Origin: Bacteroidaceae bacterium
GTDB lineage: Bacteria; Bacteroidota; Bacteroidia; Bacteroidales; Bacteroidaceae
Length of the DNA: 36,535 nucleotides
Direction of reading: 5' to 3'
Assembly: GCA_017542145.1 (NCBI GenBank)
Contig: JAFXXQ010000002.1
Location: 1-36,535 of the forward strand
Shown here: one piece after another, positions 30,997 to 33,735 of the stretch
Position numbering within the stretch: the first letter of the stretch is position 1
Layout: the number at the start of each line of letters is the position of its first letter
Translations under genes and position numbers: made by a program
The notes under the pieces: generated by a model
The model's database searches: none
What the model saw: only the letters and a program-made list of their open reading frames with translations
Told to the model about the DNA's origin: nothing

Positions 30997-31110
30997 TTGA
31001 AGAAAAAGCGGGGAACGTGCGACAAGTTGTTCATCGTAACGAACAACGATGAGCGTGTGATAGAGAAAGACGGTTATACGATAAACGTTGTTCCGTTTAT
31101 GAAGTTCTGA
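30997..31110 (+). CDS. Possible small protein of 37 residues
   Basis: In the 598-bp gap 30806-31403, one short frame looks protein-like: from a TTG at 30997, KKKRGTCDKLFIVTNNDERV continues to INVVPFMKF and a stop at 31108-31110. The residue mix and codon use fit a real protein, but there is no ATG. It ends two bases before the palindromic element at 31112. It may be a genuine small gene, the tail of a decayed gene carried with the HU/VapE module, or chance. I do not recognise the family with certainty. Confidence 0.3.
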   Translation: MKKKRGTCDKLFIVTNNDERVIEKDGYTINVVPFMKF

Positions 31111-31111
31111 C

Positions 31112-31196
31112 CGTTTTGTGACGGGTTGCGAAGGGGCGTTTCCTATAGGAAAGTGGCGTTTGCTGCGCGGTTTGGTTTTCAACCCGTCACAAAACG
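31112..31196 (+). repeat. 85-bp palindromic element with 17-bp perfect terminal inverted repeats (left flank of HU/VapE module)
   Basis: CGTTTTGTGACGGGTTG at 31112-31128 is the exact complement of 31180-31196. The interior contains AAGTGGCGTTTGCTGCGCGG (31151-31170). This interior block returns in reverse complement at 33681-33700 within the second element at 33659-33735. The size, inverted ends and dispersed copies are MITE-like, but no target-site duplication is obvious. It could also be a strong RNA hairpin. Confidence 0.75.
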
Positions 31197-31212
31197 CGGG
31201 GGGAGGGATTCG

Positions 31213-31361
31213 TTTTTTAATGAAAAATGAAGAATGAAAAATGAAGAATAAATAGCTTTGCCAGCGGAGGAACCGGCAGAGGAAAGGGAACTTTTCATAC
31301 AGGACATTTTATTTTTCATTCTTCATTTTTCATTCTTCATTTTTCATTCTTCATTAAAAAA
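31213..31361. repeat. Dispersed inverted-repeat element, copy B
   Basis: TTTTTTAATGAAAAATGAAG at the left end is mirrored by CTTCATTAAAAAA at the right. The core matches copy A: AATAAATAGCTTTGCCAGCG, then CAGAGGAAAGGGA, then TACAGGACATTTTATTTTTC. It lies between the first palindromic element and the 3-prime end of the HU-like gene. AATTTTCAATCTT-type repeats follow to 31397. Confidence 0.8.
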
Positions 31362-31403
31362 ACCTTCATTCTTTAATCTTCAATTTTCAATCTTTTTGAG
31401 TGT

Positions 31404-32081
31404 TCACCTGCCGAAGTGGCCCGGGACGGGGGTGTAGAAGCGGGTGCTGCGGGCACCACGCGAGCGGAGGGCACCTTCGGCTACTAGCGTTTGCAGCCAG
31501 GCGAGGGCTTGGTTGCGCGAGATGTCGAAGTGGGTCTCGAACTCGCGGCGTATCAGCCAGTCTTGCCTGCCGAAGTGCTCTGTCAGGAATTCATCGACTT
31601 CCTCCCGCTCTAACGGCCTGTCGGCCCGCACGCCGCTGCTGACAAAGGTGGCGTTGTTCAGCTTCTTGCGCAGCTTGCTGTCGGGGGTGAAGATGATGCG
31701 CCCTATGCGGATGTCCGTCGAGGCTATCCGCTCGTCGAGCACCTTCGGGTGGCGTTTGCGCCCGTCGTCGTACGTCTTTTTCAGGGCGAGCGACAGGTTG
31801 AACGTGCCGATGCCATCTACCTTGAGCCTGTCCCCGCTGAGCAACGTCTCGCCGAGCACTTGCGACAGAGCCGTGAGCACGCCCTTGATGTCGGGCTCCT
31901 TCACGGTACAGCGCTCGGCTATGGTCTTTGCCAACTCGTCGGTGGTGACGGTTGCCTGGTTGTAGGGCATGATGCGGACGGGCATGCGCCCCTCGGGAAT
32001 GTCCTCGTTGTTGAGCGGAGCACGCAGGACGGTCTGGTAGAGGATTTTGCCCTTTGTCTTGGTCTGTGATGAGGCTTTCAT
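31404..32081 (-). CDS. HU-like DNA-binding protein with C-terminal winged-helix domain (HU-HIG type)
   Basis: The protein has 225 residues. Residues about 15-130 form an HU-like domain with Bacteroidetes features: TTDELAKTIAERCTVKEPDIKGVLTALSQVL, then GDRLKVDGIGTFNLSL and IRIGRIIFTPDSKLRKKL. Residues about 165-225 look like a winged helix (REFETHFDISRNQALAWLQTLVAEGAL followed by SRGARSTRFY). HU domains fused to winged helices are a known Bacteroidetes group; a role in DNA architecture or control of mobile DNA is inference. The gene is divergent from the VapE-type ATPase gene, with a shared 274-bp control region. Confidence 0.87.
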   Translation of the reverse strand: MKASSQTKTKGKILYQTVLRAPLNNEDIPEGRMPVRIMPYNQATVTTDELAKTIAERCTVKEPDIKGVLTALSQVLGETLLSGDRLKVDGIGTFNLSLALKKTYDDGRKRHPKVLDERIASTDIRIGRIIFTPDSKLRKKLNNATFVSSGVRADRPLEREEVDEFLTEHFGRQDWLIRREFETHFDISRNQALAWLQTLVAEGALRSRGARSTRFYTPVPGHFGR

Positions 32082-32150
32082 GTGGTTTAAGGGTTTTTAT
32101 GGGTTGAGAATAGGATTCCGTGTGGCCTGTTTCGTCTTTTCTCATTGTCT

Positions 32151-32226
32151 AAAGCCGTTGGGAAACGTTTCCTAACCCGTTGGGACAAGTTACCCAACCG
32201 CTTGGGATGGCTTTCCCAACGGCTTT
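32151..32226. repeat. Iteron-like CCGTTGGGA cluster within a 15-bp inverted repeat
   Basis: AAAGCCGTTGGGAAA (32151-32165) is perfectly complementary to 32212-32226. Inside, CCGTTGGGA occurs at 32155-32163 and 32177-32185, and as CCGCTTGGGA at 32198-32207: three direct copies about 22 bp apart. Inverted copies lie at 32192-32200 (one mismatch) and 32214-32222. It sits in the predicted 5-prime leader of the HU-like gene and upstream of the VapE-type gene, so it may be a protein-binding array, an origin-like site or a leader hairpin. Confidence 0.65.
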
Positions 32227-32248
32227 GGAAGAATGGATTTTGACGGCG

Positions 32249-32280
32249 CAAAGGTAACGATTCCTTTTGAAAGGTGCAAA
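32249..32280 (-). promoter_or_regulatory. Promoter of the HU-like gene
   Basis: Minus-strand TACCTTTG (32249-32256) fits TAnnTTTG and a TTTG (32277-32280) lies 20 nt upstream, so both Bacteroidetes boxes are present at normal spacing. Transcription from about 32242 gives a 160-nt leader that includes the whole CCGTTGGGA array. Confidence 0.7.
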
Positions 32281-32326
32281 CATTACGGTCAAATACTTTT
32301 GTTAATTTTTCGGCATTTCGATGTAT

Positions 32327-32334
32327 TATCTTTG
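32327..32334 (+). promoter_or_regulatory. Promoter -7 box of the VapE-type gene
   Basis: TATCTTTG fits TAnnTTTG. The start would be near 32341, 15 nt before the ATG at 32356. A second possible box, TACTTTTG, is at 32294-32301. The -33 spacing is not good for either. The promoter overlaps the divergent HU-like control region. Confidence 0.5.
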
Positions 32335-32355
32335 CAGCGAAATTCTGTTTTCGAT

Positions 32356-33654
32356 ATGGTTTCATGTAATTGTTTTCTCGGAAAGCTGGGCCGGTGGCTT
32401 GGTGCTCCGAAGCGTCAGGAGGCGACGCCGAACAGCCTCAGCGTGAAGAACAATAATGGTAAGGACAACGCCCCGGGCGTCTCGCCGCTGGTGCAGGCAG
32501 AGTGGTACATCTACAGCCGCTACAAGGTGCGGCTGAACGTGCTGACGGGGCTGCCCGAGATATGCCGCCGCCGCATGGTGGGGCGCGAGGGTATGGAGGT
32601 GGCCGAGGACGACTGGAAGCCCGTCACTCGCCAGGACCGCAACCAGCTGCTGATGGAGCTGGCGGAGCAGGGCATCGGCGTCATGACGCTGGCGGCCCTT
32701 GATGCCGTCATCAACAACCGCTCCGTCGAGGCGTTCCACCCCGTGCGCAGCTGGATGGAGGCGTTGCCCGAATGGGACGGCACGCCCCGCGTGGAGCCGC
32801 TGATGGGGCGCGTGACGGAGGACGACTATGAACGCCGTTTGCTCGTCAGGGCTTTCGTGGCGATGGCTGTGCAGATGGCTGGCTGCCGTCAGAATGGCTA
32901 TGGCAACAGCCTCTGTCCCATCCTCATCAGCCAGCGGCATGGCTGGGGCAAGTCGCAGTTTGTGAAGCGCCTGCTGCCCGAGGAGCTTCGTCCTTACTTT
33001 ACCGACTCGTTCAACCCCGCCGAGGAAGACCAATGCCTGCGCCGCATGGCTACGCGGGCGCTCATCTGTCTGGACGAGTTCGACCGCTTCGTGGGCAAGC
33101 GGCTGACGACGTTGAAAAACTTCATCCAGATGTCGTCCGTTGATCTGAAGCAGCTCTATCAGGGACGCTACGAGGTGAAAGAGCGTCTGGCGAGCTTCTG
33201 GGGCACGAGCAACCAGCGCTATGTGCTGATGGACGAGACGGGCAGCCGGCGCTACCTGCCCGTCGTGGTGTCGCGTCCCATCGGGAACGGGGAACTTGAC
33301 TACGGGCAGCTCTATGCCGAGGCGCTGGCTGCGTACCGCTCCAATCCCGACATGGTGTGGCTGACGGACGAGGAGAATGCGCAGCTGGAGGCGCACAACC
33401 GTCCCTTCTGTGCTCCGCTGGCGCTCAGGGATTTGTTCAACGCCCGTTTCGAGGTGCTGCCCGACGCGAAGGCAAGTGACGAGGGGCTGCTGACGGCTGC
33501 GGATGTCTATAACCACCTGGTGGGCGTCAATCCTGATTTGCTGAGCCGCTTCTCGGAAGGCCGTTTCGGCGAAGTCCTGCGCAGCCTCGGGGCCGTGCAG
33601 CTGCGCAGTCATAAGGTGCGGCTGTACAACATCCGCTCCCGCGAAGTAGAATAA
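32356..33654 (+). CDS. VapE/VirE-family P-loop ATPase (phage/mobile-element primase-helicase type)
   Basis: The protein has 432 residues from ATG 32356. The longer frame from 32233 would start before the promoter. Family features are HPVRSWMEALPEWDGTPRV, Walker A in QRHGWGKSQFVKRLLP (about 192-205), Walker B ALICLDEFDRF (about 235-245), SSVDLKQLYQGRYEVKERLASFWGTSN and DETGSRRYLPVVV. These match the virulence-associated E superfamily of AAA/helicase-like ATPases found in phages, satellites and Bacteroidetes islands. The N-terminal primase-like or VirE-N domain seen in larger relatives is missing or reduced to about 90 residues. The C-terminal 60 residues may be a small winged helix (GRFGEVLRSLGAVQLRSHKVRLYNI). 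Replication or mobile-element control is inferred. Confidence 0.88.
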   Translation: MVSCNCFLGKLGRWLGAPKRQEATPNSLSVKNNNGKDNAPGVSPLVQAEWYIYSRYKVRLNVLTGLPEICRRRMVGREGMEVAEDDWKPVTRQDRNQLLMELAEQGIGVMTLAALDAVINNRSVEAFHPVRSWMEALPEWDGTPRVEPLMGRVTEDDYERRLLVRAFVAMAVQMAGCRQNGYGNSLCPILISQRHGWGKSQFVKRLLPEELRPYFTDSFNPAEEDQCLRRMATRALICLDEFDRFVGKRLTTLKNFIQMSSVDLKQLYQGRYEVKERLASFWGTSNQRYVLMDETGSRRYLPVVVSRPIGNGELDYGQLYAEALAAYRSNPDMVWLTDEENAQLEAHNRPFCAPLALRDLFNARFEVLPDAKASDEGLLTAADVYNHLVGVNPDLLSRFSEGRFGEVLRSLGAVQLRSHKVRLYNIRSREVE

Positions 33655-33658
33655 AAAG

Positions 33659-33735
33659 TAGTGACGGGTTGAAAAGGAAACCGCGCAGCAAACGCCACTT
33701 CTAACGTTAAATGGGCACTTTTCAACCCGTCACTA
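33659..33735 (-). repeat. 77-bp palindromic element with 18-bp perfect terminal inverted repeats (right flank of HU/VapE module)
   Basis: TAGTGACGGGTTGAAAAG at 33659-33676 is the exact complement of 33718-33735. The interior CCGCGCAGCAAACGCCACTT (33681-33700) is the reverse complement of 31151-31170, so this copy is inverted relative to the left element. It begins seven bases after the VapE-type stop codon. The remaining gap to 33789 shows no other structure I can name. Confidence 0.75.

Follow-up and report, generated by a model that had tools for sequence, protein, structure and literature searches.

Architecture of the HU-HIG/VapE unit

The window considered here, the 36,535 nucleotides at positions 1 to 36,535 of contig JAFXXQ010000002.1 from a Bacteroidaceae bacterium (assembly GCA_017542145.1), contains a candidate mobile element built of two divergent genes, a repeat array between them and a palindrome at either end. 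The left terminal palindrome (31112-31196, + strand) is 85 bp long, with perfect 17-bp terminal repeats around an interior of 51 nt, and the right one (33659-33735, - strand) spans 77 bp, with perfect 18-bp terminal repeats. They are inverted relative to each other and have a 40-nt stretch in common (31151-31190 and 33661-33700, 95% identical). The only genes that they enclose code for an HU-HIG DNA-binding protein (31404-32081, - strand, 225 aa; PF18291, E 4.6e-18, 65.9 bits against a curated cut-off of 26.2) and a VapE-type AAA+ helicase (32356-33654, + strand, 432 aa; PF05272, E 2e-31, 109.6 bits against a cut-off of 25). The VapE frame is open from 32233, and 32356 is the more likely start since two of the three closest relatives begin there. 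Between the two genes lies an iteron-like array of palindromic units with a 22-bp period (32148-32229, no strand). The earlier note on this DNA had described the same arrangement, which is confirmed here with the difference that it had put the common interior of the palindromes at 20 nt.

Folded as DNA, both palindromes form hairpins more stable than any of 200 shuffles (z -5.5 and -7.6), and the inverted-repeat score at the unit is 34, against a best of 15 in 62 same-sized control windows drawn from bases 1-29,500. Chance hairpins were thus rejected as the origin of the palindromes. No integrase, recombinase or capsid gene, by which phage-inducible chromosomal islands (PICI), staphylococcal cassette chromosomes (SCC) and other integrative islands are recognized, is present between the ends.

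Dispersed palindromic ends, their pairing and their association with VapE

The genus was sampled through 19 genomes, drafts of 62-93% completeness. Palindromes of the window type occur in five of them, namely the window's own genome (G000), G001, G003, G016 and G017. These same five are the only ones with a VapE at least 78% identical to that of the window; in G001 a contig end is nearby and the gene is broken in two. Among the 69 window-type matches, 32 form 16 ordered, inward-facing pairs, of which 12 are 206-421 bp and four are 2.3-2.6 kb long (start to start); the four long ones (in G000, G016, G017 and G003) are HU-VapE units. In four sampled window-type stretches the longest stop-to-stop frames are of 63-113 aa. 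The sampled palindromes are intergenic. In the window's own genome further copies lie on contigs C42, C12, C36, C46 and C21, and of the eight proteins encoded beside four of these copies two match no family and six match RuvB, a sigma factor, a methionine sulfoxide reductase/creatininase, a zinc finger, MlaE and an ABC transporter, with no transposase among them.

Inverted ends, of different sequence, also enclose the more distant VapE relatives (36-47% identity) that other members of the genus carry. Altogether, inverted ends were found at 15 of 20 testable VapE loci (contig ends truncate two of 22 loci, and L100 is the same site as that of the window), and in 18 of the 22 an HU-HIG gene for a protein of 206-249 aa lies divergently upstream of VapE. 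A single pattern was used to search for a second end family, which is present in ten of the 19 genomes, each of them with a VapE at E <1e-60; the reversed pattern has no matches. The nine genomes without it are the five with window-type palindromes, G009, which has a VapE fragment at 1e-65, and G008, G013 and G015, in which there is nothing below 1e-60. In the six genomes for which all ends were listed, 120 of the 135 second-family ends fall into 60 inward pairs and 15 are single; 56 of the pairs span only 37-547 bp, and a VapE lies within each of the four longer pairs (G002:C6, G006:C11, G007:C144 and G010:C7). Apart from HU-HIG, which is not always present, VapE is the sole gene family within the long end pairs that were examined, and the ends co-occur with their VapE subfamily for two of the three end types tested. 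The earlier note had held that widespread, unrelated hairpins would speak against a defined element: this holds in half, since widespread they are, with ordered pairing of 32 of the 69 window-type matches and of 120 of the 135 second-family ends.

A 21-22-bp array links gene-bearing and gene-less elements

The interiors of 37 elements were examined for tandem periodicity: 15 HU-VapE gaps, six window-type pairs and 16 short elements with second- or third-type ends (20 were fetched, four being too short). A period of 21-22 bp is found in 35 of these (22 bp in 29, 21 bp in six), and 36 exceed all 60 of their shuffles, as against 6/40 and 0/20 in two control sets. Among the HU-VapE gaps, the period is 22 in the window and in 13 of 14 others tested, an array of the kind by which iteron replicons are recognized. 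The units tend to be palindromic, with a mean of 5.7 of seven pairs matched versus 4.7 in shuffled units, and with six or more matched in 23/37 versus 11%. Moreover, one unit, CACCGCGGTG, is common to the VapE units L105-L108 and the short elements L145, L146 and L148, and a variant of it occurs in L139. Significant arrays also lie upstream of VapE in 5/11 further loci of this family, 3/8 loci of other VapE classes and 13/20 out-of-genus loci; a 21-22-bp period is seen in three, three and five of these, respectively.

Several other repeats were observed in or near the elements. Units such as GTTTGATTCT and AACGCACTACGT recur across the window-type short elements L050, L054, L058 and L066, and different intergenic tandem arrays, with GCGTGACATTT units, lie beside elements at L154 (G006:C48) and L238 (G002:C29). 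At L034 (G000:C49), where the VapE is 27% identical to that of the window, an 11-bp ACACCTACCTG tandem array lies upstream and an inverted counterpart downstream.

Short, non-coding, multicopy elements with terminal inverted repeats, as in the second family, are reminiscent of miniature inverted-repeat transposable elements (MITEs), and the main rival explanation builds on this: the ends would be MITEs, akin to repetitive extragenic palindromes (REPs) or their inverted pairs (REPINs), moved by an unrelated host transposase, and the HU-VapE genes a passenger trapped between two of them. MITEs usually do have an insertion-sequence parent, gene-less unpaired ends are common, and ends of the type found at L104 (see below) occur without their VapE. 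One parallel is offered by the BrickBuilt MITEs of Porphyromonas gingivalis, which are likewise intergenic, lack coding capacity and have terminal inverted repeats around an array of about 22-23 bp. BrickBuilt has 23-nt repeats and its ends match IS5-family insertion sequences (PMC4596501). Here, in contrast, VapE units are the only gene-bearing parents seen, insertion-sequence families beyond Y1 not having been searched. The passenger explanation is further weakened because several different end types each enclose a VapE of one family and all long second-family pairs do so; the equal array period in VapE units and gene-less elements and the lack of a transposase among the eight neighboring proteins also count against it. 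We therefore regard it as unlikely, while giving it more credence than the other alternatives considered below.

REPINs, which are short, dispersed, intergenic palindromes in inverted pairs, offer a second parallel, as the gene unit of their REP-associated tyrosine transposase (RAYT) is similarly flanked by like palindromes. The genes enclosed here, however, encode a helicase and HU-HIG rather than a Y1 HUH transposase, and the central 21-22-bp array is a further difference. The Y1 transposase (PF01797) was not found in G000, G001, G016 or G017 (drafts 84-89% complete), and G003 has one match. A RAYT/Y1 enzyme was thus rejected as the mover, and its absence from four of the five window-type genomes also bears against a host transposase of that kind in the MITE explanation.

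Evidence for movement

The units of G002 (L105) and G014 (L106) are 95.5-96.6% identical, none of the matches listed between their flanks exceeds 250 bp, and the homology is lost no more than 10 bp from the right-end motif. In G006, HU and VapE stretches that are 93.6-95% identical lie on two contigs. The G017 unit is at a different place from that of the window, and the homology between the two extends about 24 bp beyond the right palindrome. At one site a full palindrome pair in G001 corresponds to the right palindrome alone in G017, the difference beginning at the palindromes; the G001 counterpart of the G017 unit's right flank has the same right palindrome, with an interior that lacks VapE; and G003 precisely lacks a 75-bp element with L104-type ends that both G001 and G017 have. 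Taken together, these sequence comparisons make mobility of the HU-HIG/VapE element family appear well supported. The earlier suggestion of a minimal unit of replication or transposition that has no known transposase or integrase is strongly upheld, given the inverted ends that related units have of their own, the dispersed gene-less elements with like ends and a central array, and the occurrence of the unit at different sites.

The same observations bear on the idea of a fixed chromosomal system, in which HU-HIG and VapE would bind dispersed palindromes to organize or regulate the chromosome and the elements would spread only by recombination between repeats. HU proteins are indeed nucleoid proteins, the sampled palindromes are intergenic, and the difference between solo and paired palindromes at one site could reflect slippage between short GTGACGGGT repeats. 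It is made improbable, in our judgment, by the complete unit lying at different sites in related genomes and by the near-identical gene pairs on two contigs of G006.

The flanks of the window unit give some further indications. Adjoining the left end is an AAA_14/DUF4143 ATPase gene reduced to its final 31 codons (31015-31110, + strand); the relative G001 has this gene as a full frame of 414 aa. For the insertion hotspot that the earlier note read from gene remnants at the ends there are no more than hints, namely the truncation of the ATPase gene on the left and, at a few other intergenic positions, repeats that differ between genomes. At the orthologous loci inspected (G006/G014, G006/G002 and two for a G002 site), the intergenic sequence of the relatives is a different one, without a match. 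No tRNA that might serve as insertion target occurs in the window, nor does any structured-RNA family at Rfam gathering thresholds. Between the left end and HU-HIG, the window has repeated AATGAAGAATGAAAAATG / TTCATTCTTCATTTTTCATT runs (31213-31361), and it is at a run of this kind that L039 departs from the window sequence, as though by recombination. The G017 unit adjoins a single frame of 642 aa that fuses a C5 methylase to an EcoO109I-type endonuclease (L101 2916-4844, G017:C1).

The VapE and HU-HIG proteins

VapE has conserved Walker A and B, sensor-1 and arginine-finger-like residues. In both fold and sequence the protein is related to PriRep1, a staphylococcal self-loading helicase, and the primase-helicase of the Staphylococcus aureus pathogenicity island SaPI5 is also among the fold matches; no nuclease domain was seen in VapE. 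The predicted structure of HU-HIG has a low overall confidence (predicted local distance difference test score, pLDDT, 52) and is confident only in its C-terminal part, where the secondary structure of the model predicts a winged helix at residues ~159-220. Neither protein belongs to any family in the PADLOC defence models; a known anti-phage defence system was accordingly rejected, and the earlier suggestion of a defence role finds no support.

VapE relatives (E up to 1e-40) are present, some in multiple copies, in 22 of 121 genomes drawn from the wider family, those of the same genus included. At 20 out-of-genus VapE loci, inverted flanks score 25 or more in five, all in G080, and HU-HIG accompanies two. 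G080 by itself has eight VapE matches, and on its contig C17 an element of about 370 bp lies, in both orientations, on both sides of the VapE of L219 and again beside another VapE (L223). In the window's own genome HU-HIG matches occur at 22 places, 21 of them above the family cut-off, and some on contigs C45 and C46 lie in tandem pairs next to other-class VapE genes.

The kinship with PriRep1 and the SaPI5 protein raises the alternative of a decayed phage satellite or plasmid replicon, in which VapE and iterons are left over from a PICI-like island or an iteron plasmid. Distant VapE relatives do occur in phages (461 of 50,697 records) and in plasmids (85 of 72,556), and the 22-bp arrays resemble plasmid iterons. 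Yet all of these phage and plasmid matches are less than 60% identical, no integrase or capsid gene lies between the window ends, and a compact two-gene unit with ends of several diverged types and many gene-less relatives is not the picture of such a remnant. Helicases of the PriRep1/SaPI/SCC type are carried on large islands that also encode integrases or recombinases, whereas here the helicase is in a 2.6-kb unit bounded by hairpin ends. We thus see little likelihood in a satellite or plasmid origin.

A mechanistic interpretation and its implications

On balance we favor, with somewhat better than even confidence, the interpretation that the HU-HIG/VapE pair, its ends and the array constitute the gene-bearing member of a dispersed element family, which is likely copied by the helicase and carries no transposase itself. 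DNA transposons are assigned to classes by the enzyme that cuts and joins them. A bolder proposal, which we advance tentatively and consider nearly as apt to hold as to fail, is that this is a categorically new class of transposable element, with a self-loading helicase of the VapE/PriRep1 type as the mobility enzyme, a 22-bp palindromic origin array, hairpin ends that delimit the copy and joining by the host. Such an element would work without any transposase, recombinase or HUH nuclease and would mobilize gene-less derivatives across whole genomes.

We infer a copying mechanism along the following lines. VapE would bind the 22-bp array via a C-terminal winged helix, melt the DNA there and load itself as a helicase, while HU-HIG might bend the array or the ends. 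Unwinding would expose single strands in which the element's ends could fold back and limit the copy. As no nuclease is encoded in the unit, the copy would be inserted at intergenic sites by replication or repair enzymes of the host, and the short elements would be origin-plus-ends derivatives moved in trans. The Rep protein of adeno-associated virus (AAV), with its hairpin terminal repeats, provides an analogy only: AAV Rep carries an HUH nuclease domain, and VapE shows no nuclease.

Several observations weigh against the element interpretation. As to the ends, 37 of the 69 window-type matches are unpaired, and no inverted ends were found at five testable loci (L039, L115, L117, L118 and L119). 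Conversely, the other-class VapE at L034 has strong inverted flanks (score 54), three others scoring 10-11. The co-occurrence of ends and VapE partly reflects shared ancestry, because G000, G001, G016 and G017 share loci at 92-98% identity. It fails for the third type of end, which belongs to L104, a G016 unit of 47% identity, because these ends occur without a matching VapE: they are found in 11 of the 19 genomes, including G008 and G013, which lack a VapE of the family, and in a comparison of 34 VapE loci none apart from that of G016 itself exceeds 47% identity to L104. The copies without a matching VapE would be relics or have moved in trans.

Other points concern the genes, the array and the insertion sites. 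L108 and L110 have VapE alone, HU-HIG being missing. The gap arrays of L113 and L117 exceed their shuffles only narrowly, the array units of window-type short elements, in contrast to those of the second family, are barely palindromic and differ from the unit of the window's own array, and a 21-22-bp array is not specific to this VapE family because other VapE classes (3/8) also have one. In the comparison of L105 and L106, homology does not reach the left ends but breaks off 34 and 209 bp inside them. The earlier note had proposed checks for empty sites and target duplications. No clean whole-unit empty site, with both flanks adjacent and nothing of the element between them, was found among the matches listed at 22 sites queried with joined flanks, 40 candidates per genome being scored and most flanks not being among the relatives' matches listed, and no consistent target-site duplication was evident by eye at 20 sites. 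Finally, we know of no nuclease that cuts the ends.

No description of an HU-HIG/VapE mobile element was found among the top-ranked open-licence papers. If the proposal holds, a family in which a replicative-type helicase is the one constant gene would represent a new principle of DNA mobility, in the form of a compact copying system of two ends, one array and one or two genes. It would also suggest a function for the VapE and HU-HIG proteins of Bacteroidales and explain a part of the intergenic repeats in these genomes.

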